From: a virus
Reading direction: 5' to 3' (one strand)
Virus record (IMG/VR): IMGVR_UViG_3300044611_000537
Location: 1 to 28,686 of that record
Length of the DNA stretch: 28,686 bases
Part shown: in pieces, positions 1-28,686 of the stretch
Numbering within the stretch: the first letter of the stretch is position 1
Layout of the letters: each line of letters starts with the position of its first letter
Notes under the pieces: generated by a model
Seen by the model: only the letters and a program-made list of their open reading frames with translations
The model's database searches: none
Told to the model about the DNA's origin: nothing
Made by a program: the position numbers and the translations under genes

Positions 1-292
1 TGGCGCGAGCGATGGATGGGTCCACCCCTGTGCGCTTCGGAGCCAACTTCTCCGTGACGGTTTCAATCACCTCGACATCCTCTTCGGTCAGCGGTTGCGC
101 CGACTTCAAGGACTCGATGGCTGAGATGAGCCGATCGCCGTCCACGCCCATTCGGGACGCAACTTTGCGAACGGAGGTCAAGCCCAGCGTCGCTGGGTAG
201 GCGGGAGTCTGTCCTGCGGAGAGGACGCTCACCTCGAATAGATTCACTTCGCGCAGCGTGCGCTCGTCCTCGTTCCATTCATCGCCGTTCTT
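1..292. repeat. Left copy of the near-identical terminal overlap
   Basis: This stretch matches 28395-28686 at 286 of 292 bases with no gaps. Differences are at 128, 143, 158, 161, 236 and 239. All lie at third codon positions of the protease gene and all are silent. It marks the closing overlap of a circular map assembled from slightly different relatives. Confidence 0.93.
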
Positions 293-1459
293 TGGGATGG
301 TGAAGCCGAAGGACATTCCCATTGCCAACGCCTCGTGCGTCAACTTGCTAATGACGCCAGCGGCGTCTGGATCGGCTGGGTCAAGGCGAGCCTCAACCTT
401 CAAGCCGCGCTCGTCTTCGGTCAGCGTGAGTCGGCCGCTCGCGGTCGTGGCAAGTGCGCGTGTCTCGTCGTGTCCAAAGAGGAAGGAGACAATCTTCTTG
501 CCGTCAGCAACGCGCGAGAGCGTGCGACGGAAGGCGCCTGGAGCGATGACCTCGGTGAACGGAAGTCCAGCAGACGGTGCGCCAAAGAGCGCGGCGTAGC
601 CAGTGAAGGTCTTCTGACCATCTTCATCTTCTCGAACGGTGAACTCGCCCATCGGAAGAGCGCGCGTCTCAAGTTCTTTCACGTCAAACCTCTCTTCTTC
701 GGTCAGCGGCGCGAGGACGCCATCTGCCCATTCTAGGACGCGATCTGCGCCGTTCTCTGCTGTGGGATCAACGCCCCACAGGTACGCGGCCACCGCGCCT
801 GGTCCTGGGAAGTCGGCATCGTCTGAGTTGCTGTTGCGTGGTACGCCTTCCCAGTCGCCACGGTGTCGCAGAATCCACGCGCGCATCCGCGTCACCTTGT
901 CATCCTCGACTTGTCCAGCGCGCAGTTGTCGCGCCTCTTCAACGGTCTGGTCGGTCAATCCGTCGCCAGCGAAGCCGTTCCGCTCGTAGGTCAGACCCTT
1001 CTCGGCTGCCTCTTGGATGTATTGCGGCACGTCAATCAGGACGCGCATCTCATTGTTGTCGTCTTCGTCCACGGTCAATCCCATCGCCTCGTCTGCTGTG
1101 TAGGCGTCAATGCCCATCCCCTCAGCCGCGTCGCGTGCCTCGGCATCGTTGTCCACGAGGAAGGCGATCTCGTCGCCGTACTCTTCTTGCAACTTGGAAT
1201 ACTTGTATGCCTTGAACGCTTCGTTCACGGCTGGGTTGGACTCGCCAAAGTCCTGAAGATAGATTTGGTCATACGGCACGAGGTTGTCCTCAAGCCATCG
1301 CTCTGTCTCTGCAAGTCGGTCAATGTTGCGAGCCGATACCACAATCACCTCGGCGCCAAAGTCGTTGGCTTGGCTCTTCAGCCAGTCAATGAACGGCTGG
1401 TTCGGCGTGTCGCCTGTCGTAGTAAGCGTGCCGTCAATGTCGGTGATGATGTACGACAT
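1..1459 (-). CDS. HAD phosphatase / linker / HK97-type prohead protease fusion (C-terminus cut by window edge)
   Basis: This capsid maturation protease carries an extra N-terminal enzyme domain. My translation from the ATG at 1459 (ATGA overlap with the portal stop) is open to base 1. Residues 1-120 look like a HAD phosphatase: DIDGTL at 7-12 (D7, D9), VVSARN with S42, lysines at 83-89 and LVDND with D103/D105. Residues about 135-245 form a linker domain (RMRAWILRH, AVAAYLWG) of a kind placed before actinophage head proteases. From about 257 it is a U35-like prohead protease, with the likely catalytic His at FLFGH (H330) and Ser at MSFGF (S383). The last 12 codons and stop lie at 28394-28357, giving 498 aa. 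The protease call is firm; the HAD role is inferred from motifs. Confidence 0.9.
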   Translation of the reverse strand, partial: MSYIITDIDGTLTTTGDTPNQPFIDWLKSQANDFGAEVIVVSARNIDRLAETERWLEDNLVPYDQIYLQDFGESNPAVNEAFKAYKYSKLQEEYGDEIAFLVDNDAEARDAAEGMGIDAYTADEAMGLTVDEDDNNEMRVLIDVPQYIQEAAEKGLTYERNGFAGDGLTDQTVEEARQLRAGQVEDDKVTRMRAWILRHRGDWEGVPRNSNSDDADFPGPGAVAAYLWGVDPTAENGADRVLEWADGVLAPLTEEERFDVKELETRALPMGEFTVREDEDGQKTFTGYAALFGAPSAGLPFTEVIAPGAFRRTLSRVADGKKIVSFLFGHDETRALATTASGRLTLTEDERGLKVEARLDPADPDAAGVISKLTHEALAMGMSFGFTIPKNGDEWNEDERTLREVNLFEVSVLSAGQTPAYPATLGLTSVRKVASRMGVDGDRLISAIESLKSAQPLTEEDVEVIETVTEKLAPKRTGVDPSIARA

Positions 1460-2652
1460 CAGACCTGCTCGTCTTGTCCGAGTGTGCCGATGTTGAGCGG
1501 CTTCCAGTATTCGTTGCCACCGTCAACTGGCGAGCGATCTTCCAATGCGCGAACTTCATTCACCGACAGGAAGCCGTTGTTCAATGCGGTCGAGTAGGCG
1601 TTGTAGCGTTCCTGCGTGGTCGCGCGCAGCAAGCCGTCCAGCGTGAACTTCAAGAAGGTCTGCTCGGCTCCTGGCACGATGCGCTGGAACGATGCCTCAA
1701 GGCGCGCGATCATTGGTCCGAGTCCGAGGCGCAACCATTCAATGCCGATCAACTCGACCGACGCGTAGGAGGTGTTGCCGCCTGGGTACTGAAGCAGATG
1801 GAGCGGCACGCCGTAGATTCGCGCGATGGCTTCCACGCCGTAGTGCATCGTCTCCACGAGTTGCAGGTCGCTGATCTTTGCGCCGAGTTGCAGATAGTCA
1901 GCGCCGCCAGTAAGCACGGCCACTCGCCACGCCTTGTCCACACCACCGTGTCGGCGACCGAAGCCAGTGCGGAGTGCCTCTGCCTGATCCTGCGTCAGTT
2001 CGCCTGGAACCTTGATCAGACCGCCGACGCTTGCGTTGTTCTCGTAAAACTTTGCGCTGAAGATTTGCGTCGCGCTTGCAAGTCCCAGCGTCACCTTGTG
2101 ATGCTCGATCGGTGACAGCCCGCGATGATGCTCGCCAGTGGCGAACAGCGGGATGTGAATGATCTCTGCGGTTGTCAGCGTGATCGCGCCTTCGGTTGTC
2201 TCAATGTGATACATCGGCTCGCCGAACTCGCCGCTCCTGATCTCCACCTTCTGCGGATCAAGGACGCGGGTCTCAATCACATTGTCGGATGAGTCGCGCA
2301 GGCAAAGGATGAAGGCGTTGCCGTCTAGCAGCAGAGAAGTGACGACGCGATGCTTGAACTCAAAGGATGTGAAGTTCGGGTTGTTCGGGATCGGTGTGTC
2401 CATCCATCGCGGACGCGGACGGTAAGGTCGGCGCGTTCCGTCAATGCGGATGTAGGTGTCCCACGGAAGTCCAGCGATAGTGTCGGCGTAGAGTTTGACC
2501 GCGGCGTAGACCGCGCCAATGCTCGTGGCGTTCTCTTGGTTCACTAGCACGCCCGCTGCGCCGCTCTGTGCCTCCTGCGTGACCCACTGGCCGCCGATGA
2601 ATCGTTCCTCTTGTGGCTGTTGGCGTCCGAGGACGCGATCAAGGATTCCCAT
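1459..2652 (-). CDS. HK97-type portal protein
   Basis: The 397-aa product matches the HK97-family portal in length and character. The portal is the dodecameric ring at the unique capsid vertex through which DNA is packaged and to which the tail docks. Family-like stretches include the N-terminus MGILDRVLGR, the AVYAAVKLYADTIAGLPW helix region, GLSPIEH around residue 180, and a C-terminal half ending in a FLSVNEVRALEDRSPVDGG-like segment typical of this family. It starts 8 bases after the large-terminase stop, and its own stop overlaps the next start (ATGA), giving the conserved order TerL-portal-protease-capsid. Confidence 0.93.
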   Translation of the reverse strand: MGILDRVLGRQQPQEERFIGGQWVTQEAQSGAAGVLVNQENATSIGAVYAAVKLYADTIAGLPWDTYIRIDGTRRPYRPRPRWMDTPIPNNPNFTSFEFKHRVVTSLLLDGNAFILCLRDSSDNVIETRVLDPQKVEIRSGEFGEPMYHIETTEGAITLTTAEIIHIPLFATGEHHRGLSPIEHHKVTLGLASATQIFSAKFYENNASVGGLIKVPGELTQDQAEALRTGFGRRHGGVDKAWRVAVLTGGADYLQLGAKISDLQLVETMHYGVEAIARIYGVPLHLLQYPGGNTSYASVELIGIEWLRLGLGPMIARLEASFQRIVPGAEQTFLKFTLDGLLRATTQERYNAYSTALNNGFLSVNEVRALEDRSPVDGGNEYWKPLNIGTLGQDEQV

Positions 2653-4751: not shown

Positions 4752-5969
4752 CTATTTGTTGCGAGATGCGCGGCGCTGTGCGCGGTTCGGCATCGGTGTT
4801 GCGCTCGGCTTCTTGCGAGCGGTCATCAACTCGATGAGCGGCTTCCAGTCAGCGGCGTAGACCTTCACCTGGTCGTAGCGTTCCATCGCAGCGGAGACCG
4901 CCCCCCTGTCTACCCGCCCTCCCTTCGTCTCTTCGTAAACTTCCTGCAGCGCCGTGGCGATAGCAGGCACGTTCGGGATTGCGAAGAAGGAAGTCTGGAA
5001 CTCATCCCACACGCGCTGCACTGGGACTGCCTTGCAGTGCGGCCCAATCAACTCAGGCTGCGCGCTAAAGTCAGAGACGATCACTGGCGTGCCGCAGGCT
5101 TGGCTCTCCACCGCAGGGATGCCGAAGCCTTCGCCCATCGAGGTGAGCAGTTGCACGTCAGCCGCTGAATACATTTGCGCGATGGCGTCCTGCGGGATGC
5201 CGTTGCGGAAGTGGACTGGATGTGGATAGCGAACGCGCTGTTGGTCAATGCCAAGCGTGCTTACCAAGCGCGGGATGTTCACGCCTTCGCTGTGTCCGTT
5301 CGGCTCCGTGTGGATCATCCAGTAGACGTCAAGTCGGTCGCGCATAAAGGTTGCCATTGAGTCAGCCATCTCACCGAACGCCTTGCGGACTGGGATGCGT
5401 CCACGGTTGGCTGCGTTCGTCACGACGAGGAAGGCGTCCTCTGGAATGCCCATTGCGGTGCGCGCGCCCTTCCCTCGGTCGTAGAAGACAGCGCGGTCAA
5501 TGGCGTGCGGGATGTAGGTCAGTTCCTCTCTTGGGATGCCAGCCTTCAGGAGTCTGTCCTCACCGAAGCGGCTCATTGCGATGACGTGGTGCTTGCCTTC
5601 TAGTGCAAACTTGGTGACGCCAGGTGGCACTGGATCGTGGTCAATCGGTGTCCAGCAGGCGAGGTTCAGTTCCTTGAATGCCTCAACGCCGTTCAGCGGC
5701 CAGAGGTCAAAGAGGATCACGCCGAAGCCTGGCTGATCGCCAACCCACGCTTTGATGTTCTCAGGCGCTGCGTCAAGCGAATAGCGGATCAGTCCCTCTG
5801 GGAAGATCGGATGACCGTGCGCGCAGTTCATCATCACAGCGGCGCCGTGGTTGGCGCTGATTGCAACCTCGTGTCCGTCCTGAACCATCTGGTGAACGAC
5901 CTGCGCGGTCTGCATCCCATAGCCCGAAGGGATGTGACAGGCGTTGGAATACCAAGCGATGCGGCTCAT
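4752..5969 (-). CDS. GT4-like glycosyltransferase
   Basis: This is a 405-aa GT-B-fold glycosyltransferase that would move a sugar from an activated donor to an unknown acceptor. Visible are the N-terminal Rossmann-like start MSRIAWYSNACHIPSGYGMQ, a central HVIAMSRFGEDRLLKAGI segment and the EX7E donor-site motif EGFGIPAVE (E280, E288) followed by ACGTPVIVSD. I chose the ATG at 5969, with AGGAGAGG in front, over an upstream in-frame start at 6026 that would run into the HNH gene. The C-terminus is basic. It could modify phage DNA, the capsid or tail, or the host surface; the acceptor cannot be read from sequence. Confidence 0.87.
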   Translation of the reverse strand: MSRIAWYSNACHIPSGYGMQTAQVVHQMVQDGHEVAISANHGAAVMMNCAHGHPIFPEGLIRYSLDAAPENIKAWVGDQPGFGVILFDLWPLNGVEAFKELNLACWTPIDHDPVPPGVTKFALEGKHHVIAMSRFGEDRLLKAGIPREELTYIPHAIDRAVFYDRGKGARTAMGIPEDAFLVVTNAANRGRIPVRKAFGEMADSMATFMRDRLDVYWMIHTEPNGHSEGVNIPRLVSTLGIDQQRVRYPHPVHFRNGIPQDAIAQMYSAADVQLLTSMGEGFGIPAVESQACGTPVIVSDFSAQPELIGPHCKAVPVQRVWDEFQTSFFAIPNVPAIATALQEVYEETKGGRVDRGAVSAAMERYDQVKVYAADWKPLIELMTARKKPSATPMPNRAQRRASRNK

Positions 5970-5986
5970 TGTCCTCTCCTCTGCTC

Positions 5987-6298
5987 CTACTTGTGCTTGG
6001 TCGCACGACCGTGGCACGTTCTGCATAGTACCCGAAGCCGATGCTCTGGCGCTAGTAGCGGACCGCCCTTGCTGATTGGGTCAAGGTGGTCCACGGTCAG
6101 GTCGCTGGTCTTGCCGCAGACTTCACACCACGGACGCTTGCTCCTGATCTGGCTGCTCAGTTTCTTCCAGGCTGGGTCAAGGTATGGGTTAGGTCTGCCT
6201 TCCTTCCATCGGCTTTGAGCGGCCGCTTGATGCGTCTGGCATCGGTTGCCCACCATCGTGAGCACGCCGCAGTCAAGGCAGGGTCGCTGGAAGGTCAC
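5987..6298 (-). CDS. HNH endonuclease
   Basis: This is a 103-aa HNH-family nuclease. An N-terminal Cys pair (CLDCG, with NRCQTH) precedes the core: WCEVCGK, then TVDHLDPISKGG supplying the catalytic DH, and LCRTCHGR as the final zinc-binding helix. Free-standing HNH proteins encoded near terminase genes commonly support genome cutting during packaging; a homing role is the alternative. Its ATG overlaps the stop of the preceding metalloprotein gene (ATGA), and the glycosyltransferase follows 17 bases later. Confidence 0.88.
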   Translation of the reverse strand: MTFQRPCLDCGVLTMVGNRCQTHQAAAQSRWKEGRPNPYLDPAWKKLSSQIRSKRPWCEVCGKTSDLTVDHLDPISKGGPLLAPEHRLRVLCRTCHGRATKHK

Positions 6299-10950: not shown

Positions 10951-11685
10951 TTAGAACGGAAGTTCTTCCAGGTTCTGGGTGTCCTCTGGGACCAGTCTCG
11001 GCTTCGGCGCTTCGCCACTCTGGGCAGCGACGAACTCGCGGCTCGGCTTGTCCTTGCACCAACCGCCATCTGGCGTCTTATGAGACGCAGCCCAGAAGGG
11101 GTTGTACGGCTTGTTCGTTGCCTTGCTCACGCCACCTGGCTTCAGGGTCCAGAGTTCACCGTGACTGCAGGTCTCCCCACCAACGTTCTCGGCAAAGAGC
11201 ATTGCAGCCTTTGCAGCGAGGATGGCGTCATCCGTCGCTGGGTCAGACCCCCTCGTAGAATCAACGGACAGGGGTGTAGGAGCCACGGAGAGGCGCGGAA
11301 CCCTCGCAAGTGGCACTGGGACACCTTTCTCAGGTGAATAGAGGCTCCTGCCCACTCCCAACTGCGCGGCGCACCTGCGGAGCGCATCACTGGCCGCTGA
11401 CTTCAGCGGCTCGTCATCCTGTGCAGAGTTCGGGTAGCCGAAGTCCTGTCGGATCGTGGTCTTCCCACCGATCACGACGGCGAGCGATCCGTGGACGACA
11501 TTGCGTGCGCCGTCTGCGACCTTCACCTCGAACTGCCAGCCCTCAATGCCGAGGACGTCATCAAGCCGCTGCGCGACTGCTCGCGCGTCTGCGTAGGTAA
11601 ACGTCATCCCTGCTCGCCCTGGGCGATGTTTCAGGTCCTTCTCCTCGAATGGTGCCAAGAGTGCTGCTGCGATCTCCTTGCTCAC
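10951..11685 (-). CDS. Rad52-like single-strand annealing protein
   Basis: This 244-aa recombinase-type annealing protein has a Rad52/22-like core at about residues 1-125: MTFTYADARAVAQRLDDVLG, GWQFEVKV, then EPLKSAASDALRRCAAQLGVG, the most diagnostic stretch. After a linker, a Cys/His-bearing module (CSHGELW ... PFWAASHK ... GWCKDK, about 178-213) may bind zinc. The last residues NLEELPF resemble the acidic C-terminal tip of SSB. With the YqaJ-like exonuclease downstream in coordinates it forms an exonuclease/annealase pair for recombination-dependent replication. Confidence 0.85.
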   Translation of the reverse strand: MSKEIAAALLAPFEEKDLKHRPGRAGMTFTYADARAVAQRLDDVLGIEGWQFEVKVADGARNVVHGSLAVVIGGKTTIRQDFGYPNSAQDDEPLKSAASDALRRCAAQLGVGRSLYSPEKGVPVPLARVPRLSVAPTPLSVDSTRGSDPATDDAILAAKAAMLFAENVGGETCSHGELWTLKPGGVSKATNKPYNPFWAASHKTPDGGWCKDKPSREFVAAQSGEAPKPRLVPEDTQNLEELPF

Positions 11686-12242
11686 TGAACCTCCTCGCCT
11701 AGCGGATTGAGTTCCGCGTAGGTCACGTTGTGGCTGACGAACTGCGCCTTCTGGCCGTTCGGGAGTGGGTCGCCAACCTCCACACGCTTCGCCTTGCGAG
11801 CCAGATCCTCGCCGCTGATGATTCCGCAGACCCAGCCCACGTCATAGCGGTGAAGTTTCGGATCGCTGTGCTTTGTATGCCCTGGAGCCAGCCGAAGGCT
11901 GATGAACGCATAATGCTGCGCGTTCTGCCTCTGACTGTTGTAGTCGTAGACGCTCGCCTCATAATCAGGACGAGGATCTACCGCTCGCTCTTTCGTCTTG
12001 ACCTCGACCGTGCCTCGGTCGGTGTCGTAGTCGTAAAAGATTGACGCGATAAACTCGAAGCCGACGCCGATCTTCTCAAGCGCTCGCTCAAAGACCGCCT
12101 GACCCACCGCGCCCTCCCAGACTGCGGTGCGACCCTTCTGCGAGAGGCTCTTGTCCACCTTGCCAGGCGGCAGAATGTCCTCACGCTTGGCGATCTCGAT
12201 CGCGCGCTGGATGACCCGCTCGTCAATCTCGACTCGCGTCAC
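11682..12242 (-). CDS. PD-(D/E)XK-like nuclease
   Basis: This 186-aa protein has a restriction-endonuclease-like core: GAVGQAVFERALEKIG (E52), acidic residues in DYDTDRG (73-75) and GTVEVKTK (E80, K82), the pattern of a metal-dependent PD-(D/E)XK site. The rest (FISLRLAPG, YDVGWVCGIISGEDL) fits the fold. It lies between the exonuclease and the annealing protein with 4-base overlaps on both sides, so a part in recombination or DNA processing is likely. It is not recognisable as RusA or a typical resolvase. Confidence 0.7.
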   Translation of the reverse strand: MTRVEIDERVIQRAIEIAKREDILPPGKVDKSLSQKGRTAVWEGAVGQAVFERALEKIGVGFEFIASIFYDYDTDRGTVEVKTKERAVDPRPDYEASVYDYNSQRQNAQHYAFISLRLAPGHTKHSDPKLHRYDVGWVCGIISGEDLARKAKRVEVGDPLPNGQKAQFVSHNVTYAELNPLGEEVQ

Positions 12243-13174
12243 GCCATCTCCTCGTTCTTAAATCGGAAGACTCGCGCGCCTGGAACTTCCCGCGTCGCGG
12301 CTTCAATGATCTTCGGGTCCACTTTCGTTGCGACCTCCTTCCAGTCGGTCTTGACCGACGCCTTGTTCGCCTTCCAGGTTGCCGACCATCCGTTGCCGAC
12401 GATGCCAGCCTTCTCGCCGATCGCTTCCTTCAGCGAGATGGCGAGGTTCTGAAGTTCCTCATCCAGCAACTTGGACTCGTATTGCTTCTCGGCATAGAGC
12501 GCGGCCACGCGGTCAATGCCTGTCGTTGCGTTCTCGTACTCTTCGCTCGCCTGCGGCACAACCTGAGCCAGCGCGTCAGAGTCCTGACCCTGCAAGGCTG
12601 GAGGTGTCTGCGTTGCCAGAGAGTTCCTGAACTCAACTGCCTTGCGGTACAACTCCGTCTGGTAGTCCAGGCTCGCAGTCACCCGCTCGATGCGGAAGAC
12701 CAGACCACCGAGCAGGACCGCCACGTCGCACCACGGTGCCGCCGTCACGAACATCTGCCACTGCACTTGCGCTACCACCTCTGGCGGCACTGGGTGCAGG
12801 CTCCAGCGCGGTGAGGTGCTGGTCTTGATTTCCACCAAGCCCTCCTCGCCGACGATGGTGCGGTCGAGTGACGCCATCACCCAGGGAAGTTCCTTGAGTC
12901 GGACAATGCCGTTGCTGCGGCGCAACTCGCGGCCAGTCTCCATCTCGTAGAACTCTGCCACCGTGTTCTCCAGCAGGATGCCGCGCACTGCTGCTGGTCC
13001 AACTGGGTCAGGCGTGAACTTGCCCAACTTCTCAGCCCACAGTTGGTAGGGCGTCTTGTATGGGTTCAGCCCCGCGATGACCGAGACGTCGGTCGCCGTG
13101 ATGCCGTCAGCCCGAAGTGCGAACCACTCAGGACTGCGCTGCTCTGCCTTGACGAACTCGTATTGCTTGCTCAC
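12239..13174 (-). CDS. YqaJ-like viral recombinase exonuclease (lambda-exo type)
   Basis: This is a 311-aa 5'-3' exonuclease family member that resects dsDNA to give strands for the annealing protein. Motifs from the GTG start are: RSPEWFALR (13-21), GITATDVSVIAG (24-35), RGILLEN with E69, ASLDRT with D104, VEIKTS with E115/K117, and QVQWQM (137-141). The C-terminal half is helical. The GTG at 13174 has GGAGGG in front and overlaps the FmdB-like stop (GTGA); the open frame back to 13417 is not coding. Confidence 0.9.
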   Translation of the reverse strand: MSKQYEFVKAEQRSPEWFALRADGITATDVSVIAGLNPYKTPYQLWAEKLGKFTPDPVGPAAVRGILLENTVAEFYEMETGRELRRSNGIVRLKELPWVMASLDRTIVGEEGLVEIKTSTSPRWSLHPVPPEVVAQVQWQMFVTAAPWCDVAVLLGGLVFRIERVTASLDYQTELYRKAVEFRNSLATQTPPALQGQDSDALAQVVPQASEEYENATTGIDRVAALYAEKQYESKLLDEELQNLAISLKEAIGEKAGIVGNGWSATWKANKASVKTDWKEVATKVDPKIIEAATREVPGARVFRFKNEEMA

Positions 13175-13359
13175 TTGCCCTCCTTCTTTCTGTCCTTCTT
13201 GGCGAACCCTTCGCCCTTGTAAACCACCGCCGCTGGCGAATAGACCATCCGCATCCAGCGGCCGCACTTCTCGCAGCGCGGGTTGTAGACGTTCGTGATT
13301 GAGTGCGTGTGTTCCTCTCGGTGTCCGCAGTCGCCGCAGCGGTACTCGTAGACTGGCAT
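13171..13359 (-). CDS. FmdB-like zinc-ribbon protein
   Basis: The 62-aa product begins MPVYEYRCGDCGHREEHTHSI and continues with CEKCGRWMRMVYSPAAVVYKGEGF, the two C-x2-C knuckles and the Y-K-G-GF motif of the FmdB family. It ends in a basic tail. Its function in phages is not established; regulation or nucleic-acid binding is assumed for the family. The ATG at 13359 overlaps the upstream stop (TAATG) and its own stop overlaps the exonuclease GTG. Confidence 0.85.
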   Translation of the reverse strand: MPVYEYRCGDCGHREEHTHSITNVYNPRCEKCGRWMRMVYSPAAVVYKGEGFAKKDRKKEGK

Positions 13360-13520
13360 TAGCCAAGCCACGCAAACAGGAACACGATGAACGCGAAGCC
13401 GTAGATGCCGATGGCAATGTCCATCAGCGCCTGCGATCTGCGCTTCTGCTCATCGAGCAGGGTCGTGCGGATTGCCACTCGCTTGTAGACCAGTGGCTGC
13501 GTCTTTCGGTTCAGCCTCAT
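13359..13520 (-). CDS. Small membrane protein, 53 aa
   Basis: The basic N-terminal half (MRLNRKTQPLVYKR, DEQKRRSQ) is followed by one hydrophobic C-terminal helix (LMDIAIGIYGFAFIVFLFAW). It looks like a single-pass membrane protein with its basic part in the cytoplasm. The ATG at 13520 overlaps the stop of the 28-aa gene. No function can be assigned. Confidence 0.6.
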   Translation of the reverse strand: MRLNRKTQPLVYKRVAIRTTLLDEQKRRSQALMDIAIGIYGFAFIVFLFAWLG

Positions 13521-13603
13521 CGCATTGACCCCAGCGCCAAGAGCAGCACCATTGCTGCGATGAATGTGATGACCGTTGCGATCTCCTGCAGTGTCCGAAT
13601 CAT
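13517..13603 (-). CDS. 28-aa membrane mini-protein
   Basis: This frame fits exactly between two genes: its ATG overlaps the upstream stop (TGATG) and its TGA overlaps the next ATG (ATGA). It encodes 28 residues, MIRTLQEIATVITFIAAM then a VLLLALG stretch ending SMR, a single hydrophobic helix. CAGGAG lies inside the gene, not before it, so translation would rely on coupling. The close fit into the operon argues for a real gene; its size argues for caution. Confidence 0.5.
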   Translation of the reverse strand: MIRTLQEIATVITFIAAMVLLLALGSMR

Positions 13604-13845
13604 CAGCGCACCGCCTTCGCGCCGCAGTTGAAGCAGTCTGCGTACTGCACGCAGTTGCCTCGGCAGCAGGAGCAGAACTCATCGGTCGCAAACTTTGAGA
13701 CTCGGCTGCGATTTGTATCTCCGACCAATGTGCCGTGCGTATCGCACACCGCGTACCAGCGAAGGTTCTCATCCATTCCGAAGTCATCGGCAGAGATGAT
13801 CGTTGCGCCGTTCTTGTTCTTGTAAGGTCCTACGTACTTGCTCAT
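13603..13845 (-). CDS. Zinc-motif protein, 80 aa, first gene of the early operon
   Basis: No family is recognised. The protein has several metal-ligand candidates: CDTHG about residue 34, then FCSCCRGNCVQYADCFNCG, two C-x2-C pairs near the C-terminus, suggesting a zinc ribbon. The N-terminus (MSKYVGPYKNKNGATIISADDFG) is strand-like. GAGGAG is at good distance from the ATG. It is the first gene after the promoter and operator at about 13891-13929, so it is probably expressed early. Confidence 0.72.
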   Translation of the reverse strand: MSKYVGPYKNKNGATIISADDFGMDENLRWYAVCDTHGTLVGDTNRSRVSKFATDEFCSCCRGNCVQYADCFNCGAKAVR

Positions 13846-13890
13846 CGTTTTCTCCTCTTATCGGCCCTGCCGTCTGGCTGGGTTCCTCCC

Positions 13891-13920
13891 GATGTCACGA
13901 TGGTAGAACGTGATGTCACG
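13891..13920 (-). promoter_or_regulatory. Operator-like repeats over the early promoter
   Basis: The 9-mer CGTGACATC occurs twice on the minus strand, 21 bases apart (13920-13912 and 13899-13891). The upstream copy extends to CGTGA-CA-TCACG (13920-13909), a near-perfect palindrome lying between the -35 and -10 boxes; the second copy lies at or just past the likely start of transcription. Two sites two helical turns apart are a typical layout for a dimeric regulator. Confidence 0.55.
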
Positions 13921-13929
13921 GCTTGTCAA
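13900..13929 (-). promoter_or_regulatory. Promoter: TTGACA, 18-bp spacer, TACCAT
   Basis: On the minus strand, a perfect -35 box TTGACA (13929-13924) is separated by 18 bases from a TACCAT -10 box (13905-13900). It lies 55 bases upstream of the ATG at 13845 in the only sizeable gap in this part of the map and just after a hairpin, so it probably drives the replication/recombination operon. The -10 box matches TAnnnT only. Confidence 0.65.
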
Positions 13930-13963
13930 TCCCCTATTTTGAGCACGATTTTGGGAGGGGTAG

Positions 13964-13993
13964 CCCCCAGGCTGGAGGAGGTCAGCCTGGGGG
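13964..13993 (-). terminator. 11-bp perfect hairpin containing a stop codon
   Basis: The arms CCCCCAGGCTG (13964-13974) and CAGCCTGGGGG (13983-13993) pair perfectly around an 8-base loop. The TGA stop of the 77-aa gene is part of the stem. The downstream minus-strand sequence lacks a U-tract, so this is a U-less terminator or mRNA end-protecting hairpin separating the upstream operon from the early promoter. Confidence 0.65.
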
Positions 13994-14215
13994 TTCGCTG
14001 GCTGGGCCAGCGTAGTCATCGTCCTCGTCTTCGAGCAGGTCCAAGATCACTTCCAGGCACGCTCGGCAGATGCCGTAGGACAGGACTGCAGAATAGCCGA
14101 CCGTGAGGCTCACCTCCTGTTCGGCAAACTTCCACACCCTGGCTTTCTCCCCACACGGCGTGCAGGTGCCGATCAGGTCTGGGAGTGGCGCTGGTGGGCC
14201 ACTCAGGAACGGCAC
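13982..14215 (-). CDS. Zinc-motif protein, 77 aa
   Basis: No family is recognised. Two C-x2-C knuckles (CTPCGEK near residue 18 and CRACLE near 50) probably bind one zinc ion. A hydrophobic strand-helix region lies between them and a strongly acidic stretch (EDEDDD) at the end. The GTG start overlaps the metallophosphoesterase stop (TAGTG). An acidic tail on a zinc protein hints at a protein partner or DNA mimicry, but nothing decisive is visible. Confidence 0.65.
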   Translation of the reverse strand: MPFLSGPPAPLPDLIGTCTPCGEKARVWKFAEQEVSLTVGYSAVLSYGICRACLEVILDLLEDEDDDYAGPASEPPG

Positions 14216-15243
14216 TAGCGCAGGCGAATCAGGTACTCTGCTGAGACCTCTCCATCGCCGTCAAAGAACATTAGCCACTGCCCTGGCTCGCCAGACGCGC
14301 CGACGACCTCCTGAGCGAAGCGGTTGCTGCTCTCCAGTGACGGACTGCACCACGTCGTGATCTTGCCGTCGGCAAGGACGAGTCGTGCAGGCTGATGCCA
14401 GTGTCCGAACCAGAGATAGTCAAACGGCGCAACGCTCAAGCGCCAGCCGCTTGCCTTCTTTGCGACGCCGTACCACGGCATCCCAAGCCCACCTCTGAAC
14501 TGATCGCCGTGGACGATCATCCCGATCTTGCCGCCTGGCAAGTCGAGCGTGTCGTACCAGTGGCGTCCGCCAACGGTGAGGCTCTCCTTCCAACTCACAC
14601 GCTTCTCGCTCAGCACGAGTGAGCGCGCAATGTTGTAGAGAATCGCATCGCTGTTGCTTTCTGGCGAGTGATCCGAGTAGCGTCCCAAGCGTCCGTGGTT
14701 GCCGATTGCGCCGTAGACCTCCACTTGTGGGAAGAGTGCGGCCATCGCCCTGACGAACTGCGCCAGCATCTCCGCGCCTCGGAAGATTTGGACGTACAGA
14801 CCGCCAGCCTCAACTTCGTAGGCTTGTCCTGGAAAGATGTTGCCGTCTGACTCCACGAGGTCGCCAGTGAGCAGAATCTTCACCGTGTCCACAGGGTGAT
14901 CCTTGCGCTGAATCTCTACCACCCGCTGCACCTTCTCGGCGAGCAGGTTCAGCCGCTTGGCTGCGGTGTCAATGTCGTAGTCCACGCTTTTCTTGCCAAG
15001 TTGCCAGTCGCTCAGTTGCACGACGGCAACCTCGCGCTTGCCCTTGCGCTTGTCTGGCTTTGGTGCAGGCACGGCTGGAATCTTCATCCCGACGGCCGCA
15101 TCCTTCGCGGCGCGGTAGACCGCCTCCACGAGTTCTTCGGTCTGCTGCTCCTTCTTGGCGAGTGCGCGCAAAGCACGCCTGTGCGCCGACTTTAGTTCGT
15201 TGAGTTCGTCCTCACGCTGAAACTCGATCAGGTCTTCTGGCAT
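14215..15243 (-). CDS. Metallophosphoesterase (calcineurin-like) with coiled-coil N-terminus
   Basis: This 342-aa protein has a full two-metal phosphoesterase motif set: SDWQLG (D79), GDLVES (D128), GNHGR (N182, H183), HGDQF (H245) and GHWH (H281, H283). Residues 1-70 are charged and helical (EFQREDELNELKSAHRRALRALAKKEQQTEEL), probably a coiled coil. The ATG at 15243 has AGGAG in front and lies inside the end of the upstream gene. DxQxG in place of DxHxG is common in phage members. The substrate (nuclease or phosphatase) cannot be told; this may be a DNA-repair-type phosphodiesterase. Confidence 0.85.
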   Translation of the reverse strand: MPEDLIEFQREDELNELKSAHRRALRALAKKEQQTEELVEAVYRAAKDAAVGMKIPAVPAPKPDKRKGKREVAVVQLSDWQLGKKSVDYDIDTAAKRLNLLAEKVQRVVEIQRKDHPVDTVKILLTGDLVESDGNIFPGQAYEVEAGGLYVQIFRGAEMLAQFVRAMAALFPQVEVYGAIGNHGRLGRYSDHSPESNSDAILYNIARSLVLSEKRVSWKESLTVGGRHWYDTLDLPGGKIGMIVHGDQFRGGLGMPWYGVAKKASGWRLSVAPFDYLWFGHWHQPARLVLADGKITTWCSPSLESSNRFAQEVVGASGEPGQWLMFFDGDGEVSAEYLIRLR

Positions 15244-15461
15244 TTGCAGTCTCCTCTCCTGTGTCGCTGGATGTTCTGCTGCGCCCAGTGCTGGTTGCGA
15301 ATCTCGCACCACTTCTGGATTGCCTTCGCCGTGATCTTCGCGGCTGCGAGTGCCTTATCGAGCGATTGCCGATCAGCCTCGCTTATGTCAAGCAACTGAT
15401 AGCCGCAGAGTGGCCCTTTGTAGCCACCCTGCAGCGTCAGAAACTCGTCTAGGTCCTCCAT
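15228..15461 (-). CDS. Hypothetical basic protein, 77 aa
   Basis: No family is named. The C-terminal half is helical and basic (ALAAAKITAKAIQKWCEIRNQ), ending HRRGDCKCQ; this could be a helix-turn-helix followed by a Cys-containing tail. AGGAGG lies at ideal distance from the ATG at 15461. It follows the gap at 15462-15536 and overlaps the metallophosphoesterase start by 16 bases. Confidence 0.7.
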   Translation of the reverse strand: MEDLDEFLTLQGGYKGPLCGYQLLDISEADRQSLDKALAAAKITAKAIQKWCEIRNQHWAQQNIQRHRRGDCKCQKT

Positions 15462-16656: not shown

Positions 16657-16856
16657 TCTTTCCACCTCAAGTATCCTGTTGCGATCCAGATGATTGTCAT
16701 CAGGATGAACAGCGTTGCCATTGTGCTTTGCGTCTGACCCTCTGGCAGTACGACCACTGCGAAGAGCAGACCGAGGATCGTCCACGAGCCTCCGACGAGA
16801 TCGTTGATGATGTTCCTAAGCACGGCGACCACCCTTTCGGCTTGGCGTATTTCCAT
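16653..16856 (-). CDS. Two-helix membrane protein, second holin candidate
   Basis: This 67-aa protein has an amphipathic N-terminus ([19 protein letters not shown]), helix 1 ([14 protein letters not shown]), a short polar loop (EGQTQST) and helix 2 ([17 protein letters not shown]), ending in RWKE. GGAGG lies 4 bases before the ATG at 16856. The start lies 41 bases inside the end of the preceding secreted-protein gene. It could be the holin or an antiholin partner of the protein at 15537-15776; its second helix resembles the protein at 9298-9486. Confidence 0.68.
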
Positions 16857-17892
16857 TGCCTCCTGCTGGTCCGCCGCCGCCAATGTTAGCAGCCGCTCGT
16901 GCGGCATTTGACGCTGCGGCAGCCACACTTGCAACTTGGCTGGCAATGATTGCGACGGCAACTGGCTGCGCCTCTTCCTTCTCAATCGGGTCAAGGTCTT
17001 TGCCGATCTCCGTGATGGCCGCGATGTTGGCGAACACCTCGACAACTGCCTCGACCGCTGCGCCTACAACTGGCAGAGCGGGTTCGGGTTCAGGAGTAGG
17101 TACAGGAGTGGGATCAGGAGATACGGAAGGAGATGGCGCAACTTCCGTTGGTGCAGGCGTTGGCTCTGGGGTTGGTTCTGGCGTTGGGGCATTTGTCACC
17201 TCAGGACTTGGCTCCTCCGTTGGTGTTGGTGTTGGTTCGGGTGTGGGTTCTGGAGTTGGCTCAGGAGTCGGCTGAGGCGTTGGCTCAGGCGTTGGGGTCG
17301 GCGTAGGTTCAGGCGTAGGCGTCGGAGTCGGCTCTACAGAAGGCTCTGGCGTAGGGGTAGGAGCCACGCTAGGGCTGGGTGAAGGTGGTTGTGGTGTCTG
17401 GGTAGGTGTCGGCTCAGGAGTCGGCTCTGGAGACGGCGTAGGGCTGCCTACGGCGACTGTTAGGAAGCCGATGCCGCAGCACGAGTCGGTGGACAGCACG
17501 CGGAAGCCGAACAGATCGCGTGCGGCCAGCACGACCTCGATGTAGCCAGTGGCTGATTGCGTGCCGCCCTCTGCCAGCGTGAGCCACTCGCCGCCTACGA
17601 GGTACTGCGGCTTGTCGTAGTGCGCGCCGTCGGTCGTCAGGTACGACCAGAGGTACTGCGCCGTCTCAGCCTCTAGTGCGGTTGTGGTCAGGCTGGTCAG
17701 CGCGTTCCAGCGTGGCTGCTCAGGGAGCGGATTGTTCGCGCCGCCGAGTGTGACAGAACCGTCTTCGTTGACCACGACCGTGCCGTTGGAGTCGGTGCTG
17801 AAGTCCCACTCTTCAAGATCGTCAAGCGCGTAGACAGGCTGAACGAATGGCAAGACGATTGCCAGCGCGAGCAGGAGTGCGCGCAACCTCAC
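16816..17892 (-). CDS. Secreted protein: jelly-roll-like domain, Pro/Thr linker, Ala-rich C-terminus
   Basis: The GTG start at 17892 (GTGA overlap) gives 358 aa. Residues about 1-22 ([19 protein letters not shown]...YA) form a signal peptide. Residues about 23-150 are beta-rich with aromatic patches ([23 protein letters not shown]) and a Cys-Cys pair (TDSCCGIG), like a small carbohydrate-binding or jelly-roll domain. A Pro-Thr-Glu linker of about 115 residues follows, and then an Ala-rich C-terminal segment ([13 protein letters not shown]) with a glycine-rich basic tail. It could be anchored at or cross the membrane or wall. No known family is assigned, and expression from the lysis region is unexplained. 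Confidence 0.72.
17070..17450 (-). repeat. Imperfect minisatellite encoding Pro-Thr-Pro-Glu repeats
   Basis: A run of short repeats rich in GGAGTCGG, GGCGTTGG and TCAGG on the plus strand encodes PTPEPT-type units in the secreted protein. Repeat units differ mainly at third codon positions while the Pro/Thr/Glu pattern is kept, which suggests that the protein linker, rather than the DNA, is under selection. Length polymorphism by slippage is likely here. Confidence 0.75.
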
Positions 17893-18077
17893 TTGCCTGA
17901 TTGAGATTGCAACCACGCCAGAAGCGTGCCGATTCCTCCTACGCCGAGTAGGGCGCCAAGCCCCTTGAGAACGGCAAGGCCGCCCTTCATCTGGTCAATC
18001 TCTGCCTTGAGCGAGTCAATCTTCGCGGACTGCGCGTCCAGTCGGTCAATGATCGCGTCAACCTGGGATCGAGTCAT
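17889..18077 (-). CDS. XhlA-like coiled-coil membrane protein, 62 aa
   Basis: A heptad-patterned N-terminal coiled coil ([21 protein letters not shown]) leads to a C-terminal glycine-rich hydrophobic helix ([18 protein letters not shown]). This matches the architecture of XhlA-type phage proteins near lysis genes, which sit on or in the membrane. The ATG overlaps the upstream stop (TGATG). It may assist the holin; no sequence motif proves it. Confidence 0.68.
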
Positions 18078-18355: not shown

Positions 18356-20032
18356 CTATGCAACATAGAAGATAACGACAAGGCCATTGGAACCTGCTCC
18401 ACCTGCACCTGCAGCGCCATTTCCCGAAGTGATGGCGACCCCCCCTCCTCCGCCGCCACCACCACCAGAGTTTTCAGCAGCAGACCCGCCAGCACCAGCA
18501 GTGCCTACGTTACCGTATGTTGCAAATCCGCCGCCCCCTCCGCCACCTCCGTGTCTACCAGAACCAGCAGCACTTACTGCCGCTTGTCCGATGTCAAGGT
18601 TGCCATTGTATTGAGCAGAACCACCACCGCCGCCTCCACCGCCGCCTACGAAGTGTGCAGCGCCACCAACTCCGCCAGTTCCAATCGCTGAAAACGCGGT
18701 TCCGTTTCTTGTAGCCGTTGCCCCAGGAGCACCAGTGCCTGGCAAAGACAAGAATGGAACACCAGAGAAGCCAGCGATGCCGCTTGTGCCACCGCTAGTT
18801 GCTGCGCCGAACAGTGCAGTCCCAGCCGAAGCACCGTTCCCACCTTGTGCGCCAGCCTGAGTTAGTGAACCCCAGATAGTGTTTGAGGGAGAACCGCCGC
18901 TGCCGCCAAATGGTGTTCCTGCAACTTGTGTGGTTCTTGACCTATACGCAGTTCCGCCCTTTCCTTCACTGCCGCCGTTGGCAATAGCAATAGTTCCAAT
19001 ACTAGAGTTTCCTCCAGCGCCACCAGCGATTCCAGATGTAAAGGTTCCAGTTCCAGCCGCAACTGTTCCGCCCACGCCTGCCGCCCCGACGCTGATTGTC
19101 AAAGCGGTTCCTGAGATTGGCGTATTGAATGCAATGTAGAGCGCCCCTGCTCCTCCGCCTGCGCCGCCGCTTGCTCCAGCCGTTCCGACCAGAGCGCTGC
19201 TTACGACATACGCGCCAGACCCACCACCGCCGCCTGCCCCAAGCACGGCCGCGCCGACAAGTTGCGTAACACCAGTAGGAACCGTCCAAGTCTGGCTGCT
19301 TGTGAATGTTTCACTCACCAAAAACGATTGACTTGCTGCAGCGCCTGTTGAGGTTTGAATCAGCGTGGACTTGATAGTTACGCTCGTGGCGCTAGTGACA
19401 GCCGCAGTTGCCGTGAGCGTATAGGTCAAGTCCACATAGTGCGCCGCCGCGCTGATAGCCGTGCCGCCTGTGGTCGTGGTGCCGCTCATCGAGGTCCAAG
19501 TGGCATTGTCAAGAATCGTTGCCACGGTGCCTGAGTGCAGAAGTGTGTCCGTTGAATCGTAGTACGACGCCGTGAGTTTCAGGTTCCACTGCGTGGTGCC
19601 TGCGTAGGTGCCGTTCTTGCTGACCACGGCCAGCGCCTTCTGGCGCAGCGAGAGGTTGTCATCGTTCACCAAGTATGAGCGCGTGGTCATCGTGAGGTAG
19701 TCATCGGCGGCTGCCGTGCCTGGGTCAAGTTTGATGCCCCAGTTGTTCGTCGTGGCGTCGTAGACGCAGGTTGCCGTCATCACGCCATCGCTGTATTCCT
19801 GCACGTCCCAGTACGGCAACTGGTTCCCCTCGTTGATGCTGAGTGTCGTGTCTGGCGGCGTCAGTTCAAAGGTGGCGTTCGGCAAGCCGAAGAGCGCCTG
19901 CACGCGAGCCGCGTAGCCGAGCGGGGACGCACCGAAGGTCGTGTCAGACGAGATGATCGGGTTGCCCTGATTGTCCACCGTCTGGCTGAGGTTCTGGCTG
20001 ATTAGATTGTTGCTTGATCCGAACTGCGGCAT
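18356..20032 (-). CDS. Receptor-binding tail fibre with long glycine-rich C-terminal domain
   Basis: This 558-aa protein has an N-terminal tail-attachment region (about 1-240) rich in Thr/Ser strands. From about residue 260 onward there is a glycine-rich domain with many GGGGG and GAGG tracts separated by short variable loops (YRSRTTQ, SQ, HFVGG), ending GLVVIFYVA. Such domains fold as polyglycine-II bundles whose loops contact receptors, as in S16-type adhesins. The loops would set host range. AGGAG lies before the ATG. The Gly-rich domain's poly-GC tracts produce spurious Pro-rich plus-strand frames. Confidence 0.85.
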   Translation of the reverse strand: MPQFGSSNNLISQNLSQTVDNQGNPIISSDTTFGASPLGYAARVQALFGLPNATFELTPPDTTLSINEGNQLPYWDVQEYSDGVMTATCVYDATTNNWGIKLDPGTAAADDYLTMTTRSYLVNDDNLSLRQKALAVVSKNGTYAGTTQWNLKLTASYYDSTDTLLHSGTVATILDNATWTSMSGTTTTGGTAISAAAHYVDLTYTLTATAAVTSATSVTIKSTLIQTSTGAAASQSFLVSETFTSSQTWTVPTGVTQLVGAAVLGAGGGGGSGAYVVSSALVGTAGASGGAGGGAGALYIAFNTPISGTALTISVGAAGVGGTVAAGTGTFTSGIAGGAGGNSSIGTIAIANGGSEGKGGTAYRSRTTQVAGTPFGGSGGSPSNTIWGSLTQAGAQGGNGASAGTALFGAATSGGTSGIAGFSGVPFLSLPGTGAPGATATRNGTAFSAIGTGGVGGAAHFVGGGGGGGGGSAQYNGNLDIGQAAVSAAGSGRHGGGGGGGGFATYGNVGTAGAGGSAAENSGGGGGGGGGVAITSGNGAAGAGGAGSNGLVVIFYVA

Positions 20033-22153: not shown

Positions 22154-23311
22154 TTATGGGTTCCTGGGGAACGACCGCTGCGGGCTGTTGGCTCTGGTTT
22201 GGTTGCCGATGCTCGTGCTGACGTGTGAGACTGCATCGTTCCCGAAGGTGATTCGGTTGTTCACGATTACGCCTTCGCTTGAGCCTGAGCGCGTCCCTGC
22301 GGACGACATTGAATCACGCTCGCCAGCGCGGAATGCGTTAGTCGCAGCCTGACCAGCAGCGACGTCCACGTCGCTCACGAATCCAAGCAACTTCAAGCCG
22401 AAGATGATTGCGTCAATCACGGTCTTGATGGCGGTCAGCGCAATCTTTAGTGGAAGAAGCGCGAGTTCAAAGATAGAGATAGAACCTTCACTGCCCTCGA
22501 ACATGGAGAACAGTTCAGCGATTGAGTCAATAAGTGGGCCAACGTACTTCGTGACAAGATCACTAAGGATTGGTCCAACGGTGTCAAGCAACCCAGAGAA
22601 GGCTGGCAGCGCCTCTTCTACCAAGAACGTGAGCGCCTCTGTGACCATCGGCAAGAACTGCGCCCCGAACTTGTCCATCTCTTCCCCGAAGGCAATCTGT
22701 GCAGTGAGCATCTTTCCGCTAGTGCTATCAGCGAGAGCGTTGGCCACTTCTAGATACTTCTCGTTGGACTGGGTGAGGATGTCGGTGACGCTTGCGCCCT
22801 TCTCGATTGGACCAATGAGCGCAGCGAGTCCTCGCGTGCTTCCATTGGCAGCCTTGCCGATGAGCGCCATGACTTCTGCCATGTCTCTTCCAGTGACGGA
22901 GGAGATAGCGGCCGCAGCCTCGTTTGCCTGAAGAAGTTTCGTCTGATTCTTGAAGAATCGTGAGCCGACTTCTAGCCCAGCGCGAACGTCATCGTCCGTC
23001 TTGCCGAACCGAGCCATCGCCTTGATTTGCTCGTCAATCTTTGGTCCGAGTTTGTCCAACTCAAAGCCACGCGCCTTGAGTGCGGCGTTGGTGAGAATCG
23101 TTGATCGCTCGTCCTGAATCGCGCCCTTGACGGCATCAGCGACGAAGGCGGTGATCGCGGCGGCTGCAACGAGTGCAGCGGCGCCAATCGCCTTGAACGC
23201 GGCGACCGATGCGCCCTTGAGTTTGCCCATTGCGCCGCCCACCTTGCCAAGAGGCCCAGTGGCGGCGTCCTTAGCCTTGATGACGAAGTTGGCAGAACGG
23301 TCAGCAGCCAT
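22154..23311 (-). CDS. Tape measure protein (short)
   Basis: This 385-aa protein has a typical N-terminus (MAADRSANFVIKAKDAATGPLGKVGGAMGKLKGA), then a hydrophobic Ala-rich helix (about 40-58) and long helical stretches, with a further hydrophobic region (about 265-300). Tape-measure length sets tail length at roughly 1.5 angstrom per residue, so a tail near 58 nm is expected if the whole protein is used. It is short for the family. It starts by 1-base overlap (TGATG) with the upstream gene. Confidence 0.82.
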   Translation of the reverse strand: MAADRSANFVIKAKDAATGPLGKVGGAMGKLKGASVAAFKAIGAAALVAAAAITAFVADAVKGAIQDERSTILTNAALKARGFELDKLGPKIDEQIKAMARFGKTDDDVRAGLEVGSRFFKNQTKLLQANEAAAAISSVTGRDMAEVMALIGKAANGSTRGLAALIGPIEKGASVTDILTQSNEKYLEVANALADSTSGKMLTAQIAFGEEMDKFGAQFLPMVTEALTFLVEEALPAFSGLLDTVGPILSDLVTKYVGPLIDSIAELFSMFEGSEGSISIFELALLPLKIALTAIKTVIDAIIFGLKLLGFVSDVDVAAGQAATNAFRAGERDSMSSAGTRSGSSEGVIVNNRITFGNDAVSHVSTSIGNQTRANSPQRSFPRNP

Positions 23312-28356: not shown

Positions 28357-28686
28357 TTAGAGCGATTCTGATTCCATCTCGGCGAGCAGCAACTTGGCGC
28401 GAGCGATGGATGGGTCCACCCCTGTGCGCTTCGGAGCCAACTTCTCCGTGACGGTTTCAATCACCTCGACATCCTCTTCGGTCAGCGGTTGCGCCGACTT
28501 CAAGGACTCGATGGCTGAGATAAGCCGATCGCCGTCTACGCCCATTCGGGAAGCGACTTTGCGAACGGAGGTCAAGCCCAGCGTCGCTGGGTAGGCGGGA
28601 GTCTGTCCTGCGGAGAGGACGCTCACCTCAAACAGATTCACTTCGCGCAGCGTGCGCTCGTCCTCGTTCCATTCATCGCCGTTCTT
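28357..28686 (-). CDS. C-terminal part of the prohead protease fusion (N-terminus cut by window end)
   Basis: This frame runs in from the window end and stops at 28357. It holds the last 109 residues (from 390) of the protease described at 1-1459: the strand VNLFEVSVLSAGQTPAYPAT, then a charged helical tail (LTEEDVEVIETVTEKLAPKR) ending LLLAEMESESL. Bases 28395-28686 duplicate bases 1-292 with six silent differences. It is the same gene seen twice because the map is circular, not a second gene. Confidence 0.88.
   Translation of the reverse strand, partial: KNGDEWNEDERTLREVNLFEVSVLSAGQTPAYPATLGLTSVRKVASRMGVDGDRLISAIESLKSAQPLTEEDVEVIETVTEKLAPKRTGVDPSIARAKLLLAEMESESL
28395..28686. repeat. Right copy of the near-identical terminal overlap
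   Basis: Counterpart of bases 1-292, at an offset of 28,394 bases, with the variant bases at 28522, 28537, 28552, 28555, 28630 and 28633. It ends exactly at the window end, inside a gene. Confidence 0.93.

Follow-up and report, generated by a model that had tools for sequence, protein, structure and literature searches.

The window analysed here is a whole phage contig of 28,686 bp, recorded as a virus in IMG/VR and with a GC content of 60%. Its positions 1-292 repeat positions 28395-28686 at 97.9% identity (6 mismatches in 292), and because the contig ends overlap in this way the genome is probably circular or circularly permuted; this degree of identity is what would be expected of such a phage genome when assembled from a population with variants. 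A single open frame of 486 codons occupies 2..1459 on the minus strand and runs off the contig end. Given the end overlap, the gene could be completed from the opposite side of the contig, which yields 498 codons plus a stop codon, hence a protein of 498 aa whose length matches that of its relatives and whose gene spans the contig join. The first-pass annotation had described one continuous frame joining a HAD-like domain, a middle domain and a prohead protease, and the completed gene bears this out. The parts of the fused gene and its two nearest head genes, in the direction of transcription, are as follows:

1459..2652, minus strand: portal gene (PHROG 12, E 5.6e-85), whose stop codon overlaps the start codon of the fused gene (TGATG)
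1085..1459, minus strand: HAD-like domain of PNKP type, apparently capless, residues 1-125 (D7xD9GT, S42xR44, K86/K89, D103-N-D105)
1046..1084, minus strand: acidic low-complexity joint, residues 126-138, fast-evolving and of low pLDDT; the 3' cassette breakpoint
710..1045, minus strand: helical phage domain "KGL" (named from its motif), residues 139-250, from profile matches and the AF2 model
647..709, minus strand: second low-confidence linker, residues 251-271, from the AF2 model
170..646, minus strand: Peptidase_S78 head maturation protease domain, residues 272-430 (PF04586, TIGR01543, invariant residues), with the codons of His330 at 470-472, Asp349 at 413-415 and Ser383 at 311-313
2..169, minus strand: C-terminal helical tail, residues 431-486, from the ORF and the AF2 model
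28357..28394, minus strand: last 12 residues and stop codon of the fused protease gene, beyond the end overlap on the opposite side of the contig ends
27092..28279, minus strand: HK97-type major capsid protein (PHROG 10, E 1.3e-46), downstream in the same operon

The TGATG overlap is consistent with translational coupling of the portal and protease genes. The surroundings are ordinary, with head genes in the order small and large terminase, portal, fused protease and HK97-type capsid protein. Immediately upstream of the terminase genes lies a glycosyltransferase gene (4752-6026, minus strand; PHROG 2170); in the Pontimonas phage discussed below, glycosyltransferases are located after the capsid gene. 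Elsewhere on the minus strand, a recombination and repair set at 10951-15312 comprises a Rad52-like annealing protein (10951-11685), a RecE-like exonuclease (12239-13417) and an exonuclease-type phosphoesterase (14215-15312). Two further minus-strand genes encode a protein predicted to be secreted or surface-exposed, with a long tract of Pro-Thr repeats and no Pfam match (16816-17916), and a protein of 558 aa that is very rich in glycine in its C-terminal half and probably belongs to the tail tip or a fibre (18356-20032). ARAGORN also reports a tRNA-Glu (ctc) at 22541-22630 (minus strand), which lies inside a 385-aa ORF (22154-23311) and is possibly spurious.

The assignment of the protease is straightforward. 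Residues 273-424 match Peptidase_S78 (Pfam PF04586) with an E-value of 1.6e-30 and 106.9 bits against a curated cut-off of 21, and the HK97 prohead protease model TIGR01543 is likewise exceeded (E 1.8e-25). H330, D349 and S383 are invariant in 71/71 distinct homologues, in agreement with the His330 and Ser383 named in the first-pass annotation, and the gene sits between those for portal and capsid protein. The KGL domain that precedes the protease is common to many head proteases, being found in those of PHROG 80 and in PHROG 2859.

For residues 1-125, the best phage profile is PHROG 415, "polynucleotide kinase" (E 1.6e-11), and the profile match to bacterial Pnkp1 (4xrp) has an E-value of 1.6e-4. 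The window protein scores below the curated cut-offs of Pfam HAD_PNKP and Hydrolase_3; for HAD_PNKP (PF25109) it reaches 20.6 bits and its homologue L146 21.9 bits, against a gathering score of 27.6, while L146 does pass Hydrolase_3 (25.0 versus 20.9 bits). In the AF2 model these residues adopt a HAD fold with a pLDDT of about 90, and Foldseek matches it to T4 PNKP (3.8e-4), Pnkp1, lipin and Nir2, with HAD phosphatases at a probability of 1.00. The support for a HAD domain is thus moderate in the sequence of the window protein itself, firmer in its homologues and good by predicted structure. Its nearest relatives are PNKP-type 3'-phosphatase domains, and we regard it as a predicted phosphatase; "PNKP-like" denotes resemblance, not membership, since the domain scores below the family cut-off.

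The full motif set that had been proposed for this domain is also retained. Among the 71 distinct homologues, motif I is kept at D7 (68, with Gly in the other 3), D9 (71) and T11 (70), motif II at S42 (71), and motif IV at D103 (70), followed by N, D or S at position 104 and D or S at position 105. Either K86 (70/71) or K89 (69/71) could be motif III. The SxR that follows strand 2 in PNKP-type enzymes is present as S42/R44, R44 being kept in all 71; in T4 PNKP the equivalent is S211/R213. T4 PNKP also requires an Asp-x3-Lys pair, D254/K258, and a further arginine, R176, for which the profile alignment of the HAD domain to Pnkp1 gives no one-to-one match. Profile searches with Pfam, PHROG and TIGR models found no 5'-kinase P-loop domain in the fused protein. 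No close homologue of the HAD domain was found among isolated phages, which yielded only PNK genes at 24-39% identity, and no bacterial relatives turned up when GTDB genomes were scanned with patterns from the HAD alignment, an approach able to detect close relatives only.

The domain is under purifying selection, with a median dN/dS of 0.137 against 0.116 for the protease and 0.51 for the joint (residues 123-138). An exception to the conservation of its active site is formed by L150 (3386-5461), L151 and L152, three contigs from three metagenomes, in which the nucleophile Asp7 is replaced by Gly (MIEIYGIDGTLT) and the HAD domain stands alongside DUF5824 and DUF3721 modules. It follows from this lineage that catalysis can, at least in some cases, be dispensed with. 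L091 and L092 carry DIDGAL in place of DIDGTL.

To place the fusion among its relatives, IMG/VR was searched and the loci (given here as L-numbers) were read out in frame. HAD and S78 share a single open frame in at least 93 loci, and nearly all others run off their contigs; the exceptions are L107, with a stop within the HAD domain, and L179, with a frame shift ahead of S78. Assembly error or frameshift is therefore ruled out as the source of the fusion, and of the two results that might have undone the earlier reading, a frameshift between the domains and the lack of a HAD fold, neither was obtained. Independent translation of the protease, beginning within the frame, was rejected as well, since no conserved start codon with a Shine-Dalgarno sequence was found; the codon before RVLIDVP is ATG in 42 cases, GTG in 26 and a non-start codon in the remainder. 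The HAD domain also occurs on a far more distant KGL-S78 core (the L146 type, 44% identical overall). The C-terminal end can vary too, since L021 (5001-6842) and L022 carry about 110 extra residues near the C-terminus of the HAD-protease (EQRETWTVSADRDLDIVERDWDGAAAA...).

Some 45 of the closest relatives lack a HAD domain, although from residue 133 on they are 90-98% identical to the window protein. At the DNA level, L030, L036 and L041 align with the window over two stretches: one, at 89-94% identity, runs from the terminase and stops roughly 20 nt downstream of the protease start codon, and the other, at 90-94%, extends from around codon 138 to the end of the capsid gene. Only some 390 nt between these flanks are replaced. 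The replacement codes for a "GWA" module (MPYFVTD...GWATVK...GCH) and a Cys module that is weakly HiPIP-like; the model of this alternative N-terminus is poor (mean pLDDT 41.6) except for the 45-residue GWA module. The cassette edges thus coincide with the start codon and with the fast-evolving, low-confidence joint. Further combinations include HAD+Cys, GWA+HAD, HAD+DUF5824, HAD+DUF5824+DUF3721 and GWA+Cys+DUF5824. When presence or absence of the HAD domain is placed on a tree of the remaining codons, 9 changes are counted, of which one stems from the truncation of record L143; we infer about eight exchanges, from a quick tree search that recombination inside the gene could distort. In nine cases both cassette types co-occur within one metagenome.

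Supply of the HAD domain from another locus was considered and rejected, as none was found elsewhere in 10 contigs of HAD-less relatives, which include contigs of 29.4 and 30.1 kb (records not certified complete); conversely, no GWA module was found elsewhere in near-full-length contigs that bear HAD. Hence, the head maturation protease of this freshwater phage group has an exchangeable N-terminal slot, filled here by a HAD domain. Because near-identical phages lack it, this domain cannot perform a core step in packaging or in the assembly of the head. The interchangeable front end suggests that the protease offers a slot to which accessory proteins are attached for loading into the virus head.

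At the outset head proteases were taken to be encoded alone as a rule, a view that does not hold in this group, where the N-terminus habitually bears extra modules. The only isolate with the same core is the Pontimonas phage phiPsal1 (Microbacteriaceae host), whose N-terminus is GWA+Cys. In the Roseobacter phage CRP-821 (L197:3653-6577), KGL, DUF5824, Peptidase_S78 and the HK97 capsid protein form one 974-aa chain, which is annotated merely as major capsid protein. Salinibacter phages carry DUF5824 in an 846-aa protein adjoining the head genes, with a trace S78 score only. A literature search on DUF5824 returned nothing relevant. We conclude that head proteases recurrently carry accessory modules at the N-terminus, of which the HAD domain is one kind.

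How such a module might be used is best accounted for, with a probability of about 0.4, by a model in which the HAD domain is delivered cargo. Since the protease can act only once it is inside the procapsid, any domain fused to it would be carried along. The protease would then cut the flexible joint (about residues 123-138, and perhaps 251-271 too), and the HAD enzyme thus released within the head, of about 14 kDa, would be ejected together with the DNA and would dephosphorylate a nucleic-acid end or a nucleotide in the newly infected cell, in counter-defence or repair. Because different hosts or defences would favour different cassettes, repeated swapping would follow. We infer procapsid entry from the role of S78 proteases, and with it release at the joint, delivery and the substrate. 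A single frame shared by at least 93 loci, in which no internal start with a Shine-Dalgarno sequence is conserved, argues for this model, as do cassette boundaries at the start codon and the joint, a dN/dS in the HAD domain similar to that of the protease with active-site residues kept, and the replacement of HAD and its alternative by one another at one site, a turnover typical of accessory or effector genes. By analogy, T4 internal proteins (PMC7697877) and MuF/portal effector fusions (PMC5512222) may serve as precedents. Against the model stand the three contigs that keep a HAD domain with Gly for its nucleophile, and the alternative modules are not recognisably effectors. Moreover, on the usual view HK97-type proteases are degraded and do not stay in the prohead, and the fused domain might be lost along with them.

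In our ranking delivered cargo comes first, with a structural or regulatory role close behind and a cytosolic enzyme third. The structural reading, which we entertain as a tentative but serious competitor, takes the N-terminal modules as assembly adaptors that bind the portal, the scaffold domain or the capsid protein, or that delay activation of the protease; different folds would serve one role, and HAD catalysis would be incidental. It would account for the unrelated modules (GWA, HiPIP-like, DUF5824, DUF3721 and HAD) that precede the same KGL-S78 core, for the retention of the nucleophile-dead HAD in L150-L152, and for the fact that no empty slot was seen among the complete proteins inspected, L073 holding just a short GWA module. 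However, active-site residues that are otherwise almost invariant (68-71 of 71) go beyond the need of a pure adaptor, and phages with identical neighbours use different modules, so that no specific contact is conserved. If the domain instead acted on nucleotides, RNA or DNA ends inside the infected cell, while heads are being assembled or earlier, as in tRNA repair or the clearing of 3'-phosphates, its fusion would be a matter of co-expression only. Its similarity to PNKP fits such a function, and stand-alone phage relatives of the domain do exist (A0A6J5PPF4, 149 aa, 37% identity; A0A6J5R3D5, 151 aa), but in every IMG/VR HAD locus inspected the domain is joined to the protease, which is more than co-expression requires, and the window proteins scanned contain no RNA ligase or kinase domain; we consider this unlikely. 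Least probable by far is that the N-terminal domains are tolerated hitch-hikers, freely recombining and without selected function. Frequent exchange and one inactivated lineage are what such shuffling would produce, whereas a dN/dS of 0.14 in the HAD domain next to 0.51 in the adjacent joint, and frames that stay open in nearly all copies, are not.

Returning to the delivered-cargo model, a broader and more doubtful form of it would extend the idea to small HK97-type phages of aquatic bacteria in general, with the N-terminus of their head protease as a cargo slot. Diverse enzymatic and binding modules would be loaded into every procapsid, freed as the protease cleaves itself and injected in the manner of T4 internal proteins, with the protease as targeting signal. 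If delivery is true, the maturation protease has a second function as the vehicle that loads the head, which would give small siphophages a simple way of delivering enzymes on entry and open a new place to seek counter-defence proteins. Regardless of the cargo model, this is a clear case of repeated exchange of a single domain within a gene essential for morphogenesis, while the DNA on either side has hardly changed. The exchanged forms occur in phages sharing one water sample, and they offer a ready-made set of natural variants with which the function of the N-terminal part of head proteases can be studied.

Compared with known systems, the fused protein shares with HK97-family prohead proteases (PF04586/TIGR01543) the catalytic domain, its His, Ser and Asp, and the position between the portal and HK97-fold capsid genes, but adds about 270 N-terminal residues made up of the exchangeable cassette and KGL. 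The phiPsal1 protease (AUV61415.1, MG835450) has the same KGL-S78 core and gene order, with 41% identity over residues 145-457, and differs in its GWA and HiPIP-like Cys module in place of HAD. The architecture itself is already in UniProt as a plain "Prohead protease" of an uncultured Caudovirales phage (A0A6J5R419), the same by length and alignment (81% identity over 488 columns), in whose annotation the HAD domain goes unmentioned. We found no published description of the HAD fusion, and a search of the non-subscription literature on a HAD or phosphatase domain fused to a head protease gave nothing relevant. With the phosphatase domain of T4 PNKP (2ia5) and with Pnkp1, its best sequence and fold matches, the HAD domain shares the fold, DxDGT, SxR and an acidic motif IV, but it lacks a kinase domain and remains below the HAD_PNKP cut-off. 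In T4, a targeting sequence directs internal proteins into the head and the head protease releases them by cleavage (PMC7697877), a scheme of cargo entering the prohead and being released there that the proposed model resembles; in the present case the protease itself would carry the cargo as a fusion, and release of the cargo is a proposal. The nearest published idea is the polyvalent or MuF/portal-fused enzymatic effectors that are thought to be injected (PMC5512222), a text in which "prohead protease" occurs once and "phosphatase" not at all. As in those systems, varying enzymatic domains sit on a head-associated protein encoded between the portal and capsid genes, and exchange on such a carrier was found here, with conserved flanks and some eight to nine changes on the tree; the carrier, however, is the maturation protease and not MuF or the portal.
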